A stretch of DNA of 64,000 nucleotides, taken from Chryseobacterium gleum (GTDB lineage: Bacteria > Bacteroidota > Bacteroidia > Flavobacteriales_D > Crocinitomicaceae). The notes below the pieces were generated by a model that was given only the letters and a program-made list of their open reading frames with translations, ran no database searches and was not told the DNA's origin. A program made the translations under genes and the position numbers. Shown one piece after another: positions 56,445-64,000 of the stretch (within the stretch, counting starts at the first letter, position 1; each line of letters begins with the position of its first letter). The stretch spans positions 124,001-188,000 of the forward strand of contig CAMDAH010000002.1 of NCBI GenBank assembly GCA_945888625.1. Reading direction: 5' to 3'.

Positions 56445-56856
56445 GATGAATTGGGTTGTTAATTTAACCTCTTTACGGGGAATTTATCTACTTTTTTTGA
56501 ATAACATGCGAGTTACTTATCGTTGACTTATTTTATATTTTCTTTTGGATTATGTTTCCTTAATTGCAAATACGGGTGTTCAAATAATAGATTTAAGAAT
56601 TAAATTAAATCATGTAAAGTTTAGAACATTAAAATTCAATTATTTTGAGGGACTTGATAGTTTCTCTCTAAATTATTGGTTTGATGAGTTGATTGAAATC
56701 AAAAACATAGCAAAATTTATTAGAAAGTATGACCTTGAACAATTGGTTAATTAAGAATATCATTATCATCAGCTTGTTATGAAAACATCTTTAATATAAT
56801 ATTTTATTAACATGCCGAAACTAAAGTATATTTATTTTTACTTAAAAAAACAAAAT
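56445..56856. other. 412-bp gap with a possible gene remnant
   Basis: Very AT-rich. It contains only the doubtful frame described separately (56545..56754). A TATATTTA box (56827-56834) lies 22 nt upstream of the phosphodiesterase ATG at 56857 and may be part of its promoter. I see no RNA gene or terminator. Confidence 0.5.
56545..56754 (+). pseudogene. possible 3' remnant of a protein gene
   Basis: The open frame has only a TTG start and a stop just upstream (TGA 56524). Yet its 69 residues (DYVSLIANTGVQIIDLRIKL ... YWFDELIEIKNIAKFIRKYD) have protein-like composition. It could be the tail of a degraded gene, or chance in AT-rich DNA. I do not recognise the family. Confidence 0.25.
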
Positions 56857-58080
56857 ATGAAACTTCAATTTACCCTCGTATCTTTATTCTTCACCTTAAT
56901 CATGTTTGCTTCTCAACCTAGAAAAGTATTGATTATTGGAATAGATGGTGTTCGTACGGATGCTTTACAACAAGCAAACACTCCCAATATTGACGCCTTG
57001 ATTGCTTCAGGTTTTTATACCTATGAGTCCTGGCATGAGGGTATAACAGTATCCGGTCCGTCATGGTCTACCATAATGTGTGGAGTAGAATTTCCGAAGC
57101 ACGGAGTAACCAGCAATTCGTATTCAGGAAGCAACTACAACCAGTACCCCTATTTTACCCGCCTTGCTAAAGATTGTCTACCTGACTTATATGAAGTTCA
57201 AATCGTGCAATGGGCTCCTATGAGCGATAATGTGTACAACGATGGATGGGACCAAAAAATTAAAGTGTGTGATGGATGCGGCGCCAACAGCGTTTCTGCT
57301 GCGCAAACCCAACTGGCCAATCCTAATTTGGATGTACTTTTTGTATATTTTGATGAATGCGACTTAACAGGGCATTCTATTGGATTTAACCCTGCGAATC
57401 CGGCCTACATTGCTGCTATTCAAACCGTTGACGGTCATGTAGGTAGCATATTAAACGCCTTGTACAGTCGTCCGAATTATGCCAATGAAGATTGGATTAT
57501 CTTATTAACCACCGATCATGGCGGCATTGGAACTGGGCATGGAGGAAATACCAATTCAGAACGCAAGATTTGGTGGGTAGGAAGTGGAAACAACCCTGTT
57601 TCAAAACAACTCACCAATGTTGCTGATCCTGGAAGTTATGTAATGGGAAATCATAACGCACAAGTCGCGCTTAACAATCCGTCGCAAGCCGATATCGCGG
57701 TAACAGCACTTGATCATTTATTTAGGGGTACTTCCTGCAATCCTACTGACCCAGCGTTTAACTTAGATGGAACCTCATGGTTGGATTCCTTGCATTCAGA
57801 TCCTATTGTTGCTACTACTGAAATTCAAGAAGATTTCATAAAAATGTACCCCAATCCTGCAACGGATATTCTGAGCATTTGGTTTGAGAATAATGATCAA
57901 CAATCGATATCCTACGTGATTTATAACCTTCAGGGAAAGGCTGTGAAAGAAGAAGAGAATGCTGAAGCAATTAATGCAAATAAGCTCAATATCGATTTAT
58001 CCAAGCTTAGACGAGGAAATTACCTCTTGAAATTTCAAATTGGAGGTAAGCTTCTCACCAAGCCCTTCATTGTAGAATAA
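56857..58080 (+). CDS. T9SS-secreted alkaline-phosphatase-superfamily hydrolase (phosphodiesterase/phosphonate hydrolase type)
   Basis: 407 residues from ATG 56857 (MKLQFTLVSLFFTLIMFASQ signal peptide). The catalytic domain (about 22-315) is that of nucleotide pyrophosphatase/phosphodiesterases: metal aspartate in VLIIGIDGVRTDAL, predicted nucleophile region TVSGPSWSTIMCGVEFPKHG, metal block DECDLTGHSIGF, and TTDHGGIGTGHGG with the last metal ligands. The C-terminus (about 340-407, MYPNPATDILSI ... RGNYLLKFQIGGK) is a T9SS sorting domain, so the enzyme acts at the cell surface. It is paralogous to the 59573 protein. Context suggests an organophosphonate or phosphodiester substrate. Confidence 0.88.
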   Translation: MKLQFTLVSLFFTLIMFASQPRKVLIIGIDGVRTDALQQANTPNIDALIASGFYTYESWHEGITVSGPSWSTIMCGVEFPKHGVTSNSYSGSNYNQYPYFTRLAKDCLPDLYEVQIVQWAPMSDNVYNDGWDQKIKVCDGCGANSVSAAQTQLANPNLDVLFVYFDECDLTGHSIGFNPANPAYIAAIQTVDGHVGSILNALYSRPNYANEDWIILLTTDHGGIGTGHGGNTNSERKIWWVGSGNNPVSKQLTNVADPGSYVMGNHNAQVALNNPSQADIAVTALDHLFRGTSCNPTDPAFNLDGTSWLDSLHSDPIVATTEIQEDFIKMYPNPATDILSIWFENNDQQSISYVIYNLQGKAVKEEENAEAINANKLNIDLSKLRRGNYLLKFQIGGKLLTKPFIVE

Positions 58081-58253: not shown

Positions 58254-59528
58254 GTGAAAAAGGTTCCGAATCAAAGTTTATTGTTTTTCTTTTGGTCATT
58301 TACGGCGGTTTTCATGGCCTATTCCACCATGTACGCCTTTAGAAAGCCTTTAAATGCAGGGACCTATGAAGGCGAAACTGTTTGGGGATTTGGATTAAAA
58401 TCGATATTACTTACGAGTCAAATTGTCGGGTACATGCTTTCCAAGTTTATTGGAATCAAAGTGATTTCTGAATTATCTAACACCTCTCGAAAACGCTTAA
58501 TACTTTACCTTATTCTTTTTGCTCATGCCGCACTTTTACTTTTTGCATTAGTGCCTGTTCCATATAAATTCATATGTTTATTTCTCAATGGTTTGCCGCT
58601 GGGCCTCGTTTGGGGGGTGCTTTTTTCGTTTGTAGAAGGAAGGAAACTAACTGAAGCCTTAGCTGCAGGTATCGCCATTGGCGCCATTCTCTCCTCAGGT
58701 TTGGTGAAATCCTTGGCAAGATACCTAATGGATAATGCCTACTTCAATGTACCAGAATTTTGGATGCCCTTCGCGGTTGGTCTTATCTTCCTACCTATAT
58801 TGCTGTTGTCTATTTGGATGTTACAACAAATACCCGAACCTGATGCAGAAGACATCCATCTCAAGACCAAACGGTCTGCCTTAACTGGAAAAAAACGAAT
58901 CCGTTTGTTATTTCTTTTTTTGCCGGGTATACTTTCGTTTGTTTTTTTGTACTTGTGCTTAACGGTATTTCGTGATTTTCGAGATAACTACGCTGTTGAA
59001 ATTATGGAAGCGTCTGGCGAATTCAATTCAGGAGTTTTTATAAAAACCGAACTTCTCGTTGCATTTACCGTTTTGCTAACGACCTCATTGGTCATTTTTG
59101 TAAAAAATAATTCCCGCGCTTTTTTTCTGTGCCAATGGCTCATTTTATTGGGGTTTATCCTTATGTTTCTAGCAGGTATAAGCTTAAGTAATGGGCAAAT
59201 TTCGTTTATAAGTTTTACCATTTTAAGCGGAATTGGCATGGCTATGGGTTACGTGCCTTTTCAAATCGTACTCCTTGAACGTTTTGTTGCGGCTTATCGA
59301 ATCGAAGGAAACGTTGGATTCCTTATGTATTTATCTGATAGTTTTGGATATTTAGCAAGCGTTATTCTCATTTTTTCAGGGGAATTTGGTTGGTGGAATT
59401 TTAACAAAAGTGACCTAATTGTCCAATTGGCGATTTACGGCAGTGCTGCGGGATTGGTGTTTTCGATTTTTGGTCTTATTTATTTCCATCTGCGTGGAAC
59501 TGTCTATGAAAAAGCATTAAATATTTAA
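58254..59528 (+). CDS. DUF5690 family membrane protein, candidate organophosphate/phosphonate transporter
   Basis: 424 residues from a GTG. About 12 hydrophobic segments. The N-terminal AVFMAYSTMYAFRKPLNAGT resembles the start of organophosphate:phosphate antiporters of the major facilitator superfamily (GlpT/UhpT type), in which an arginine in this place helps bind phosphate. A further half-way loop with charged residues (TKRSALTGKKRIR) separates two six-helix halves. Given the surrounding phosphonate genes, import of a phosphonate or a phosphate ester is the likely job. DUF5690 has no established function that I know of. A TAGTTTAG box ends 4 nt before the GTG. Confidence 0.75.
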   Translation: MKKVPNQSLLFFFWSFTAVFMAYSTMYAFRKPLNAGTYEGETVWGFGLKSILLTSQIVGYMLSKFIGIKVISELSNTSRKRLILYLILFAHAALLLFALVPVPYKFICLFLNGLPLGLVWGVLFSFVEGRKLTEALAAGIAIGAILSSGLVKSLARYLMDNAYFNVPEFWMPFAVGLIFLPILLLSIWMLQQIPEPDAEDIHLKTKRSALTGKKRIRLLFLFLPGILSFVFLYLCLTVFRDFRDNYAVEIMEASGEFNSGVFIKTELLVAFTVLLTTSLVIFVKNNSRAFFLCQWLILLGFILMFLAGISLSNGQISFISFTILSGIGMAMGYVPFQIVLLERFVAAYRIEGNVGFLMYLSDSFGYLASVILIFSGEFGWWNFNKSDLIVQLAIYGSAAGLVFSIFGLIYFHLRGTVYEKALNI

Positions 59529-59561
59529 CACTCAATTCATGTTTTAGTCACCTTAGGATTT

Positions 59562-59569
59562 TAAATTTA
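59562..59569 (+). promoter_or_regulatory. possible -7 element before the second hydrolase
   Basis: TAAATTTA is one mismatch from TAnnTTTG and ends 3 nt before the GTG at 59573, within the 44-nt gap after DUF5690. If used, the transcript would start at the GTG. Confidence 0.35.
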
Positions 59570-59572
59570 CTT

Positions 59573-60529
59573 GTGAATTTCAGACTTATTATAATTTTAT
59601 CTTTCCTTTTTTTGTTGTTGAACAGCATGCTTGTGACTGGTCAAAAAACAAAGAAAGTTTTAATCATCGGAATTGATGGTTGTCGTTCAGATGCTTTATT
59701 GAAGGCCAATACACCAACAATTGACTCGTTAATTTCCATTGGATTATTTACTCAAAGTTCATGGCATTTGGGAAAAACTAAATCCGGACCTGGATGGTCG
59801 AGTATGTTAACAGGCGTTTGGGATGCGAAACATCGCGTGCACAACAACCGATTTTCGGGACATCAGTTCGAGAAATACCCTTTTTTTCCAGCATACCTTA
59901 AGGCCTTGGATAGCACGATCAATAGCACTATAATCATAAGTTGGAAATCGCTAGCAAACCTTGCGCCGAAATTTGGTTGGGATCAAAGTATTTTCGCATA
60001 CAACGACGAAGAATGTTTGCAAAAGACCTTACAGTGCCTTTCAACCCGAGATCCAGAAATCATTATGGTACATTTTAATGATGTAGACCACATTGGGCAC
60101 CTTAGTGGTTTTGAACTTGACAACCCAAGATATATCAAAGCAATTGAAGGGTTAGATGAAAAAATAAAACGCCTGTTCTATTACCTTAATAACCGCCCTA
60201 ATTTTACCAATGAAGATTGGTTAATACTCTCGTCCACCGACCACGGAGGAACAAAGCATGGGCATTCCAATAGTAGTGTAATGGAACGTAAAATTTGGTG
60301 GTTGGGTGTGAATTCAGCACTGCCTAAAGGTCAGCTAATTTCACAAGATCCGGGTTCATTTTATTACCCGGAAGTTCCTTTCTGTAGCCATGCTCAAACG
60401 CCAACACCCTATATTGTAGATATTGCAGCAACTGCCTTAGATTTTCTCATGCCCAATTCAAAGGAATTACCCTTAACTTTGGAAGGCAAATCATGGCTTA
60501 ATAAACCTATTTCTAATGCGAAAAATTGA
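59573..60529 (+). CDS. alkaline-phosphatase-superfamily hydrolase, periplasmic (paralogue of 56857)
   Basis: 318 residues from a GTG. A signal peptide (MNFRLIIILSFLFLLLNSML) is followed by VLIIGIDGCRSDALLKANTP, nucleophile region TKSGPGWSSMLTGVWDAKHR, NDVDHIGHLSGF and STDHGGTKHGH, aligning with the 56857 protein along its whole catalytic domain. It has no sorting domain, so it should stay in the periplasm. It overlaps phnX by 14 nt, tying it to phosphonate breakdown. The fold is shared with phosphonoacetate hydrolase and with nucleotide pyrophosphatases, so the bond cleaved cannot be decided from sequence. Confidence 0.88.
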   Translation: MNFRLIIILSFLFLLLNSMLVTGQKTKKVLIIGIDGCRSDALLKANTPTIDSLISIGLFTQSSWHLGKTKSGPGWSSMLTGVWDAKHRVHNNRFSGHQFEKYPFFPAYLKALDSTINSTIIISWKSLANLAPKFGWDQSIFAYNDEECLQKTLQCLSTRDPEIIMVHFNDVDHIGHLSGFELDNPRYIKAIEGLDEKIKRLFYYLNNRPNFTNEDWLILSSTDHGGTKHGHSNSSVMERKIWWLGVNSALPKGQLISQDPGSFYYPEVPFCSHAQTPTPYIVDIAATALDFLMPNSKELPLTLEGKSWLNKPISNAKN

Positions 60530-61322
60530 CACCATCATTTTTGATTGGGCGGGTACCTTAGTAGATTTTGGGTGCATGGCTCCAGTTAAGGTCTTTATTG
60601 AAGTTTTTAGGGAAGTAGGCATAGAAATTACGGAAGCCGAAGCACGCGAACCCATGGGCCTCAGTAAGCGTCAGCATATTATAGCCATTATAAAACAACC
60701 GCGTGTGCAACAATTATGGATAGAACATTTCGGTGAACCTGCAACGAAGCGGGATATTGATATACTATACAAAGCATTTGAGCCGAAACTTTTAGCCTCG
60801 GTTTCAGACTACGTTGAACTCATTCCTGGCGTAGTTGAGACCTTGAACAAATTGCGAAAGCAAGGCATTAAAATCGGTTCTACCAGCGGTTACAGCCGCC
60901 AAGTGCTGGATAAAATCATCTCATTGGCCCAAGCACAAGGCTTGGAGTTAGATTACTCTGTTGCAGGAGATGAATGCAAGGAAGGAAGGCCATCTCCCTT
61001 TATGATTTTTAGAAACATGGAACATTTCAGTACCTATCACACAGATTCCGTGATCAAAGTAGGTGATACGGTTTCCGACATCGAAGAAGGATTGAATGCG
61101 GGGGTATGGACTGTGGCTGTTATTACAGGTAATGAAATTGGAATGTCGAACGGCGATTGGACTGCGCTATCCACTGAGAAAAAGGAAGAAATAATGCATC
61201 ACGCCAAGGATAATTTTAATCGTTACGGTGCACATTTCATCTTAAAAGACCTGAACAGACTCATAGAAGTTATCGAAGAAATTAATCTGATTTTAATTTG
61301 TGAAACCAATAATCAATACTAA
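60516..61322 (+). CDS. phnX: phosphonoacetaldehyde hydrolase (phosphonatase)
   Basis: 268 residues. HAD fold with the phosphonatase variant motif FDWAGTLVDFG (DxAGT), the AP-rich MAPVKVF segment, and the catalytic Schiff-base lysine of the cap domain in EPMGLSKRQHI. GDECKEGRPSP has arginine where most HAD enzymes have lysine, and VGDTVSDIEEG binds Mg2+. It cleaves phosphonoacetaldehyde to acetaldehyde and phosphate, the last step of 2-aminoethylphosphonate (AEP) degradation. The partner transaminase PhnW is not in the window; it may lie downstream. Overlaps the previous gene by 14 nt and precedes the next by 3 nt. Confidence 0.95.
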   Translation: MRKIDTIIFDWAGTLVDFGCMAPVKVFIEVFREVGIEITEAEAREPMGLSKRQHIIAIIKQPRVQQLWIEHFGEPATKRDIDILYKAFEPKLLASVSDYVELIPGVVETLNKLRKQGIKIGSTSGYSRQVLDKIISLAQAQGLELDYSVAGDECKEGRPSPFMIFRNMEHFSTYHTDSVIKVGDTVSDIEEGLNAGVWTVAVITGNEIGMSNGDWTALSTEKKEEIMHHAKDNFNRYGAHFILKDLNRLIEVIEEINLILICETNNQY

Positions 61323-61325
61323 CCT

Positions 61326-62579
61326 ATGAAAACAGTTACAATTTTATTTTTTACAGCCTTTAGTTACGGAATTATGGCGCAATGCCAACCGAGTCCTGCA
61401 ATTACTAACATTTACCAACCCATTGGTGCACTAAACTCACCTAGCGGTGGGCTGCTTACCCCTTCGAACTTTTATGCGAGTCCTGGACAACCCTTTAGCC
61501 AAGTGGTTACGGCAATGGCTCCTGAACAATTGACGGTTGCTAACCCTTTAGGATTTCCACCGACCATTACGGTCAATGTCAATTGGATTAGAGTAACGAA
61601 CATTCAAAATCTTCCTTCATGGGTATCCTATCAATGTGGTGGGCAACTTGACCCCTCGGATCCGTGCAAAATGGCTTATCCAACATGGAGTTGCGTAAAC
61701 GCCTATGCCAATACCGCAAATGGAACAGTACCCTTGAATGAAGTTCCAGGGAGTGTGTATTCGCTAGAAGTCATTGTTGACGCAAATGCGACTATTCTTG
61801 GCACCCAATCGAATTACAACGGAGGAAACATCAGCTTGTATATTTTAAATAGTTTGGTCAATAGCCTTTCCTTTGATTCTTGTAACGGAGGAACAATAAG
61901 CACTACTACTTCAGGGGGATTTAACGATCCAGGAGCCTACGTTTACACATGGAGTAACGGACAACAAACACCTCAAATCAGTAACTTACAAAACGGGTGG
62001 TACACCTGTACAGTGTTGGACCAAGCCACAGGATGGGTTACTACCGATAGCGTTTTAGTAAGTGGGATTCAGCCCGTAATACTAGTGAACGATATTGCCG
62101 TAACGCAACCTACAAACACTAACAATGGCGCAATCAACGTTGCAGTAAGTGGGGGAAATGCTCCATTTAGCTATGCTTGGAGCGGTCCTAATGGTTTCAC
62201 CGCTTCCACTTCCTCTATCACTAATTTGTTTGGAGGTACTTACATCTTGACTGTTACAGATGCCTCGGGTTGCGTTGCTACCAAAACGTATTTTTTAAGT
62301 GCTTTGGGCATTTCAAATAATTCTATAGGACACATTAAGTTATTTCCAAACCCTGCAAATGATTACATTATCGTAAAAGGATTAAAAAGCTCAGAAGCAA
62401 CCGTTGAAATCGCCATTTATTCTTTAGATGGTGCTCGTGTAGCGATGAAAACCTATCACGTAAATGACTCGAAAGTTCAGATTGAAACAGCTGAGTTGGC
62501 CGATGGAAAGTACATGCTTGAAATAATACAATCCAACTTAAGTATTTTCAGGCCTTTTGTTATTAAGCACATGGAATGA
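61326..62579 (+). CDS. T9SS surface protein with SprB-like repeat, inside the phosphonate operon
   Basis: 417 residues. Signal peptide (MKTVTILFFTAFSYGIMAQ); an N-terminal region (about 20-175) with cysteines and VNVNWIRVTNIQNLPSWVSY, of a type seen in other T9SS cargo; two SprB-like repeats (about 185-250 and 252-330, the second reading GAINVAVSGGNAPFSYAWSG); then a sorting domain (about 340-417, KLFPNPANDYIIVKG). It should be on the cell surface. Its start is 3 nt after phnX and its stop overlaps the next HAD gene by 4 nt, so it is translated as part of the phosphonate operon. Ligand unknown; capture of a phosphonate-bearing polymer is possible. Confidence 0.85.
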   Translation: MKTVTILFFTAFSYGIMAQCQPSPAITNIYQPIGALNSPSGGLLTPSNFYASPGQPFSQVVTAMAPEQLTVANPLGFPPTITVNVNWIRVTNIQNLPSWVSYQCGGQLDPSDPCKMAYPTWSCVNAYANTANGTVPLNEVPGSVYSLEVIVDANATILGTQSNYNGGNISLYILNSLVNSLSFDSCNGGTISTTTSGGFNDPGAYVYTWSNGQQTPQISNLQNGWYTCTVLDQATGWVTTDSVLVSGIQPVILVNDIAVTQPTNTNNGAINVAVSGGNAPFSYAWSGPNGFTASTSSITNLFGGTYILTVTDASGCVATKTYFLSALGISNNSIGHIKLFPNPANDYIIVKGLKSSEATVEIAIYSLDGARVAMKTYHVNDSKVQIETAELADGKYMLEIIQSNLSIFRPFVIKHME

Positions 62580-63268
62580 TAAATAATTTTCCAAAAGGAA
62601 TAGAACTCTTCGTTTTTGATATGGCGGGGACAACGGTTGACGAAACCTTTGCGGTTCATGATGCCTTAATTGCAGCATTCGCCAGCGTTGGAAAAAACAT
62701 CACTCGGAACCAAGCGAACCTTTCGGTCGGCGTACCAAAACCTTTGGGAATTGAGTCCATTTTAATAGCTTTCTTTGAACCTGCCAGCTCCGATGAAGTA
62801 TATAAACTTCACAATAAATTTCTCGAAAATATCAATAAATATTACTTGGAAAAACAAATTCAGCCCACTGAAGGAACGCTTGAACTATTCCAAGCACTGC
62901 GATCTAAAGGCATAAAAATAATGTTAGATACCGGCTTTTCAAGTACCACAGCGGATATCATTATTCAACGTTTAGGATGGGAAGCCCTTATTGATGGGAG
63001 AGTTTGCAGCGACGAAGTACCAAACGGAAGACCTCATCCCGATATGATTTATCAGGCCATGGAACAGTGTGGAATTCAACATCCAAACCATGTTGTAAAA
63101 GTAGGCGATACACCAGTCGATATCCAACAAGGGAAAAATGCAAATTGCGCTTACATCATTGCTGTGGATGCAGGAACTTTTCCCAAAGAGTCTTTAGAAG
63201 CTGAAAACCCTGATTTGATCGTAAAAAAATTGAATGAAATCATCCCTCTTATTGAAGCCCATGTATGA
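62576..63268 (+). CDS. phosphonatase-like HAD hydrolase (PhnX-like, TIGR03351 type)
   Basis: 230 residues. The first HAD motif is FDMAGTTVDE (DxAGT as in PhnX). A lysine in VGVPKPLGI aligns with the cap lysine of PhnX. CSDEVPNGRPHPD has the phosphonatase-type arginine, and VGDTPVDIQQG is the Mg2+ motif. It is shorter and lacks the MAP segment of true PhnX. The family is known to sit next to the FAD oxidoreductase found here and has been proposed to act on a relative of phosphonoacetaldehyde. Overlaps the upstream gene by 4 nt and the downstream by 8 nt. Confidence 0.88.
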   Translation: MINNFPKGIELFVFDMAGTTVDETFAVHDALIAAFASVGKNITRNQANLSVGVPKPLGIESILIAFFEPASSDEVYKLHNKFLENINKYYLEKQIQPTEGTLELFQALRSKGIKIMLDTGFSSTTADIIIQRLGWEALIDGRVCSDEVPNGRPHPDMIYQAMEQCGIQHPNHVVKVGDTPVDIQQGKNANCAYIIAVDAGTFPKESLEAENPDLIVKKLNEIIPLIEAHV

Positions 63269-64000
63269 TATAGCAATAATTGGTAGCGGTGTCTTGGGAA
63301 GTTTTCACGCATTTCATGCGGCGAAGGTTGGATTGCGCGTTGCCGTCTTTGAAAAAGACTTAATGCCCATGGAATCGAGCGTTCGTAACTTCGGGCAAGT
63401 GGTACCATCTGGGTTTGCTCCAGGACGATGGCATTATTACGGAAGATATTCCACCAAACTTTATCTCGACTTACAGCAAAAAATAGGCATTGGAGTGCGT
63501 AATAACGGTTCGGTTTACCTCGCAAACACCGCTTGTGAAGCCCAGCTATTGGATGCCTTGCACGAGAGCTTCAACCAAGTAAATTATTCGTCGGAACCGA
63601 TGAATCAGCAGCAAGTTTTATCCCGATGGTCGTCCATGAAAAAGGACTATGTTCGAAGTGGCCTATTTTTCCCTCAGGAAGTTTCTGTGGATCCGCGCAT
63701 CATGATTCACAGAATTCACGGGTACATGATCGAACAAATGGGTGTGGACATGCATTTTCTTTCCCCCGTTATCGAATTGAACGACCGTGGTGATAAGGTT
63801 GAAATTTCCACGAGTAATGGAAAAAAAATTCAAGCGAAACAGGTGATTGTTTGCAATGGCCGAGATTTTAAAATACTATTTCCTGAGCTCTTTAACACTT
63901 CTGATATCGAGGTGTGTAAACTTGCCATGATGGTGACAAAACCTATGCCCGAAATTGAACTCAAAGGAAATATTCTTACCGGTCTCACGATTCGTCGTTA
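63261..64000 (+). CDS. FAD-dependent amine oxidoreductase (TIGR03364 type), 3' cut by window edge
   Basis: The frame from ATG 63261 stays open to the last base (246 residues), so it is absent from the ORF track. It starts MYDIAIIGSGVLGSFHAFHA (FAD-binding GxGxxG) and VAVFEKD, followed by SSVRNFGQVVPSGFAPGRWH and NNGSVYLA, typical of the DAO-type family that accompanies PhnX-like hydrolases. By family context it would oxidatively deaminate an aminophosphonate (AEP, its N-methyl or its hydroxy derivative) to the aldehyde that the HAD enzyme then cleaves. It overlaps that gene by 8 nt. The substrate is inference. Confidence 0.9.
   Translation, partial: MYDIAIIGSGVLGSFHAFHAAKVGLRVAVFEKDLMPMESSVRNFGQVVPSGFAPGRWHYYGRYSTKLYLDLQQKIGIGVRNNGSVYLANTACEAQLLDALHESFNQVNYSSEPMNQQQVLSRWSSMKKDYVRSGLFFPQEVSVDPRIMIHRIHGYMIEQMGVDMHFLSPVIELNDRGDKVEISTSNGKKIQAKQVIVCNGRDFKILFPELFNTSDIEVCKLAMMVTKPMPEIELKGNILTGLTIRR

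Follow-up and report, generated by a model that had tools for sequence, protein, structure and literature searches.

Among the described systems closest to this locus is AepP of Pseudomonas putida BIRD-1, a proven MFS permease for 2-aminoethylphosphonate (AEP). It is related to GlpT, with which it shares 27.75% identity (E 9e-37), and it has been reported in some Bacteroidetes too (PMC8316502). GlpT-like aminophosphonate carriers are therefore already known. In GlpT itself, Pi is bound mainly by R45; K46 and R269 take part when the carrier faces outward and K80 when it faces inward, with further Pi contacts from Y38, Y76, and Y270 (PMC4598623). The ABC phosphonate importers PhnCDE, PhnSTUV, and AepXVW are driven by ATP and built from several subunits, a binding protein among them. 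ABC systems, AepP, and a few symporters are the transporters listed in a 2023 review of phosphonate degradation, which contains no Bacteroid- or TonB- term and does not deal with phosphonate uptake in Bacteroidota (PMC10574752). As for catabolism, PbfD1, a member of TIGR03364, converts N-methyl-AEP into phosphonoacetaldehyde, which is then split by PhnX (PMC10590968).

The window (the whole stretch of DNA analysed here, 64,000 nucleotides long) ends in an operon of phosphonate genes, one of which encodes a protein of the DUF5690 family. The features of this region are as follows:

56812-58080, + strand: PF01663 phosphodiesterase carrying a type IX secretion tail at its C-terminus; its gene ends 173 bp before DUF5690
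58254-59528, + strand: DUF5690 (PF18943) ORF, GTG start, 424 aa, 12 hydrophobic segments; proposed aminophosphonate importer
59573-60529, + strand: second PF01663 phosphodiesterase
60516-61322, + strand: phnX, phosphonoacetaldehyde hydrolase (TIGR01422, 323.8 bits, cut-off 220)
61326-62579, + strand: SprB-repeat protein with a type IX secretion tail
62576-63268, + strand: PhnX-like hydrolase (TIGR03351, 173.6 bits, below the cut-off of 218.9)
63234-64000, + strand: TIGR03364 FAD-dependent aminophosphonate oxidase, cut by the window end (398 aa at full length)
L002:8423-11368 and L002:11302-14265 (about 64423-67368 and 67302-70265 on the window scale): pair of overlapping TonB-dependent receptor genes, on the same contig as the window but past its end

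Counted from DUF5690 on, the gene order is PF01663 phosphodiesterase, phnX, SprB/type IX secretion protein, PhnX-like hydrolase, TIGR03364 oxidase, and the two TonB-dependent receptors, with gaps of 44, -14, 3, -4, -35, -8, and -67 bp. The receptor genes form the end of the operon, so that outer-membrane transport is included in it. The preliminary description had called the DUF5690 protein the only transporter candidate here; this holds for the inner membrane, since it is the sole inner-membrane carrier of the phosphonate run in the window, but not for the operon as a whole, because the two receptors lie just past the window. Scans for promoters and terminators gave results no better than those for shuffled sequences. 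The gene for the SprB-repeat protein (61326-62579) is flanked by phnX on one side and the PhnX-like gene on the other, with hardly any gap to either.

The window protein is a full-length member of PF18943, matching 380 of the 382 positions of the model (E 1.5e-129, 432.7 bits, against a Pfam gathering score of 25 bits). Neither DUF5690 nor PF18943 is mentioned in the open-access literature searched, and the family is without a described function. Hydropathy averaged over a 51-member alignment revealed 12 segments, and a 32-residue basic loop (191-222) separates segments 6 and 7, which corresponds to the 6+6 layout of the MFS and agrees with the major-facilitator layout noted in the preliminary description. 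MFS_1 is the sole second Pfam family recurring more than two times among 40 DUF5690 members. Its matches are weak (six of the 40 with E no higher than 1, the best being 7e-4), and the window protein is not among them. Sequence searches of the PDB with DUF5690, both single and profile, gave no match, and an AlphaFold model built with only two near-identical sequences as input had a pLDDT of 41. The assignment of DUF5690 to a non-MFS type of membrane protein was rejected on the basis of the pocket residues and topology.

An unconstrained full-length profile alignment to GlpT, UhpT, and UhpC placed 9 of the 11 GlpT pocket residues on matching DUF5690 residues. Y38, Y42, R45, K46, and Y76 of GlpT align with Y23, Y27, R30, K31, and Y60, and K80, R269, Y362, and Y393 align with K64, R240, Y333, and Y366. 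Eight GlpT residues of the substrate site (Y38, Y42, R45, K46, Y76, K80, R269, and Y393) all fall on identical residues of DUF5690. Six positions (Y23, R30, K64, R240, Y333, and Y366) are invariant in the 51 DUF5690 sequences. UhpT and UhpC, aligned by the same procedure, match 9 of the 11 residues each, and the intermediate OPA-like profile matches six and the ACS profile three. Eleven other single MFS proteins match 0-4 residues, with the counts for LacY, NarK, XylE, KgtP, and FucP lowered by their having been aligned in part only; EmrD, DgoT, GudP, and ExuT, which were aligned in full, score 1-4. The main motifs are located in three of the segments:

58320-58346, + strand: TM1 motif Y23-S-T-M-Y27-A-F-R30-K31, aligned with GlpT Y38/Y42/R45/K46
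58971-58985, + strand: TM7 motif R240-D241-F-R243-D244, with R240 on GlpT R269 and D241 on GlpT Y270
59337-59351, + strand: TM11 motif D362-S-F-G-Y366, with Y366 on GlpT Y393 and D362 on GlpT G389, both invariant in 51 sequences

The first of them lies within MAYSTMYAFRKPLNAGT, residues 21-37 of the protein encoded at 58254-59528. The likeness of this helix to the start of GlpT/UhpT, with a phosphate-binding arginine, had been pointed out in the preliminary description; the Y-x3-Y-x2-R-K pattern, falling on GlpT Y38/Y42/R45/K46, confirms it. Since the counterparts of Y76, K80, R269, Y362, and Y393 align together with those of TM1, this likeness is part of a wider match.

The overall relationship to the OPA carriers is distant. 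DUF5690 shares with GlpT, UhpT, and UhpC of E. coli the twelve segments, the cationic residues R30/R45, K31/K46, K64/K80, and R240/R269, and five tyrosines, but its identity to them along the whole alignment is only about 17%, it has lost H165 and gained D241 and D362, and it is not matched by the curated OPA model TIGR00881, which reported none of 40 DUF5690 members even at E 1. In profile comparisons, the single-pair E-values were modest, at 1e-4 to 4e-4, for DUF5690 against the OPA sets or UhpT, and 0.06-0.09 against GlpT or UhpC alone; those for the ACS set, the intermediate OPA-like set, and single non-OPA carriers were 0.007 or weaker. As the TIGR00881 model is not matched, DUF5690 is not filed here in the OPA family and is described as working like an OPA carrier. 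The kinship to organophosphate antiporters suggested earlier for this protein thus stands as regards the nine aligned pocket residues and has to be restricted to that of a distant relative of GlpT and UhpT, as judged by sequence, outside the curated model.

AepP is a single-gene MFS-type carrier, as DUF5690 would be; both keep the Pi-binding residues and are encoded beside genes of phosphonate/AEP catabolism. By its published identity to GlpT, AepP is far nearer to the OPA carriers than DUF5690 is. It lies well within the range of ordinary sequence searches, whereas no OPA search picked up DUF5690. DUF5690 also has a signature of its own, consisting of K49, Q56, E128-G-R130, RD(F/I)RD, and D362. 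Judged by these sequence features, it is a separate family, more distant from GlpT than AepP. No protein in the loci of the phnX-bearing plasmids could be named as AepP. The ABC importers PhnCDE, PhnSTUV, and AepXVW have no sequence relation to DUF5690, but they occupy the same position in the gene cluster and do the job that is proposed for it.

The link between DUF5690 and phosphonate catabolism extends well beyond the window. DUF5690 was found over the cut-off in 42 of the 395 sampled Bacteroidota genomes, or about a tenth. TIGR03364, the aminophosphonate oxidase family, is present in 33 of the 395, and 30 of these 33 also contain DUF5690 (odds ratio 292, Fisher p 6e-32, uncorrected for relatedness). 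The two genes are at most 4 kb apart in 24 of the 30 genomes, and in 18 of these 24 the edges of the matches are only about 30-210 bp apart. PhnX over the cut-off was detected in four genomes, all of which have DUF5690. When PhnX or PhnX-like, TIGR03364, Phn-HD, PhnW, PbfA, and PhnY were counted as markers within 9 kb, with representatives of the clusters checked against NCBIfam, phosphonate-catabolism genes were found near DUF5690 in 38 of 52 loci (37 of the 51 examined and the G014 locus, where PhnX follows about 1.2 kb after DUF5690) and in all four plasmid records. Two assignments were rejected and excluded from these counts, namely a "PhnW" in L051, which is a SufS-like cysteine desulfurase, and a "PbfA" in L076, which is a 4-aminobutyrate transaminase; a putative PhnY-like ORF in L059 was excluded too.

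Individual records demonstrate the same arrangement. A Novosphingobium plasmid has the order DUF5690-TIGR03364-phnX, records of Bacteroides finegoldii and Parabacteroides distasonis have DUF5690-phnX-phnW, and in a Phocaeicola record the phnX match begins 115 bp after that of DUF5690. In Acinetobacter and Vibrio, an AEP ABC transporter holds the corresponding place. The adjacency spans many genera, including some outside Bacteroidota. Thus, the phosphonate association noted for the window gene was found again, by co-occurrence and adjacency, with each of the six kinds of marker. SusC/SusD-like pairs occur in 19 of the 51 DUF5690 loci; together with the TonB-dependent receptors, these recurrent pairs point to a possible route of phosphonate uptake across the outer membrane.

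Given this phosphonate-gene neighbourhood and the retention of the residues with which GlpT and UhpT grip phosphate, DUF5690 is a likely importer. The best explanation of the data is that it is probably an OPA-related inner-membrane carrier serving the import step of the aminophosphonate-utilisation operon, and we are slightly more confident still of aminophosphonate import by DUF5690 as such. The survey of other importers is consistent with this. The source genome has no candidate for PhnE, and PhnE over the cut-off is missing in 23 of 26 DUF5690 genomes. The 37 phosphonate-context loci were scanned for other multi-span proteins, and no organic-solute carrier adjoining the operon was observed in any of them; the idea of a further inner-membrane importer next to it was rejected for this reason.

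In two of the 37 loci, the scan did reveal a multi-span protein that by eye looks like a PiT phosphate transporter, and in a Parabacteroides record an annotated phosphate transporter adjoins DUF5690. Pi handling is thus on hand at some of these loci, PhnX releases Pi, and the DUF5690 site fits Pi, all of which would agree with DUF5690 being an exporter of Pi or of another product of phosphonate breakdown. We consider such an exporter very unlikely, as the operon would then be left with no inner-membrane importer in the source genome and in most other loci, and DUF5690 loci stand where proteobacterial loci have AEP importers. The PiT-like proteins near DUF5690-phosphonate loci are located at L074:5999-8254, L090:16751-19048, and L095:886-3141 (the last is annotated so), and they perhaps handle released Pi.

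A membrane sensor reporting external phosphonate to a regulator has also to be weighed, since UhpC, which is annotated as a glucose-6-phosphate sensor, keeps as many pocket residues as DUF5690, and a GAF histidine kinase with a PhoB-like regulator is encoded in the stretches around a few loci. No kinase is regularly adjacent, though; the regulator that does recur, in 21 of 51 loci, is an XRE-cupin protein, and no other importer would remain if DUF5690 were a sensor. This role appears a shade more improbable than that of an exporter.

Not all members of the family share the phosphonate context. Seven of them (L043, L059, L063, L066, L067, L068, and L072) group in a supported clade whose loci show no phosphonate marker; Tyr27 is replaced by Phe in exactly these seven. 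PhnX, PhnX-like, TIGR03364, and PhnW were all absent from four genomes of this clade. A Caulobacter control genome likewise contains DUF5690 and gave no match to PhnX or TIGR03364. The Y27F clade probably does something else, and the importer label should therefore not be extended to every DUF5690 member. One could go further and suppose that DUF5690 in general imports another organophosphate or an organic anion and that the phosphonate neighbourhood reflects some members only, as this clade would suggest. We regard this as unlikely, given that phosphonate context is found on every main branch of the DUF5690 tree (6 label changes versus 12.7 in shuffles) and around every close relative of the window protein.

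For the members in phosphonate context, aminophosphonate import remains the preferred reading, and its steps can be sketched as follows. Phosphonolipids or phosphonate-bearing polymers would be cleaved by exported phosphodiesterases, with release of aminophosphonates. The outer membrane would be crossed through TonB-dependent receptors, which are of the SusC/SusD types in other loci. In DUF5690, R30, K31, K64, and R240 together with Y23, Y27, Y60, Y333, and Y366 would grip the phosphonate, D362 and possibly D241 would hold the ammonium group, and alternating access would carry the substrate inward across the inner membrane. The TIGR03364 enzyme would then oxidise it, most likely as N-methyl-AEP, to phosphonoacetaldehyde, which PhnX would split into acetaldehyde and Pi. 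N-methyl-AEP appears the likeliest substrate because PhnW is absent from the source genome.

The coupling of this transport is the least certain step. Uptake in exchange for the Pi released inside would, on the model of GlpT, be the most natural solution, in which the exchange would carry out the Pi made by the pathway; we hold it only tentatively, at a little short of an even chance. The two acidic positions bear on this question. D362 is acidic in 51 of 51 sequences, as is the D241 position (46 D and 5 E), while six OPA-type proteins have Gly/Asn and Tyr/Ile/Ala there, respectively, none of them acidic. GlpT H165 is not kept, being A144 in the window protein and mostly Phe across DUF5690. 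If the alignment is right, D241 and D362 lie beside the phosphate site, where they may hold the ammonium moiety of an aminophosphonate or else take part in proton coupling. Aminophosphonates might accordingly be imported by H+ (or Na+) symport instead of Pi exchange, with D241 and D362 as the coupling site. The conserved acidic pair, the loss of H165, and a sodium symporter reported in an AEP cluster of Sinorhizobium (PMC10574752) speak for symport, but the complete cationic Pi site, which antiport with Pi requires, is kept, and Pi is made inside by the pathway. Symport is a real yet somewhat doubtful possibility, and we place it below exchange with Pi.

We further suggest, as a proposal that we hold at slightly under even, that DUF5690 makes up a carrier family of its own whose pocket, composed of an OPA-type phosphate site and two carboxylates, is specific for aminophosphonates. 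It would provide the inner-membrane step of loci dedicated to phosphonate use, those of gut Bacteroidales included, whose SusC/SusD or TonB receptors, together with exported phosphodiesterases, would gather phosphonolipids or phosphonate-bearing polymers. If true, a function would be assigned to an uncharacterised family present in about a tenth of the sampled Bacteroidota genomes, and DUF5690 would be a genetic marker for aminophosphonate use. All this raises the question of how a phosphate-exchange pocket was adapted to a zwitterion by added acidic residues.

Regarding its distribution, DUF5690 is absent from all 14 sampled genomes of the genus of the source and present in other genera of the same family. 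Given this absence, the phosphonate operon (58254-64000) may be accessory or acquired. No DUF5690 relatives were found in viral contigs. When genome contigs were scanned for the gene, the sole match was a 99% identical contig. This contig, L003, is filed as Chryseobacterium gleum (a metagenome-assembled genome) and carries a 99% identical copy of the DUF5690 gene and its neighbours; probably either the organism name attached to it is wrong or it was misbinned.

The PhnX-like hydrolases encoded beside TIGR03364 (62576-63268 in the window, and in L054, L077, L082, and L089) all score just under the TIGR03351 cut-off (173-216 versus 218.9 bits). In the window protein, a lysine occupies the place of the PhnX Schiff base, and these Bacteroidota hydrolases may have a substrate of their own.
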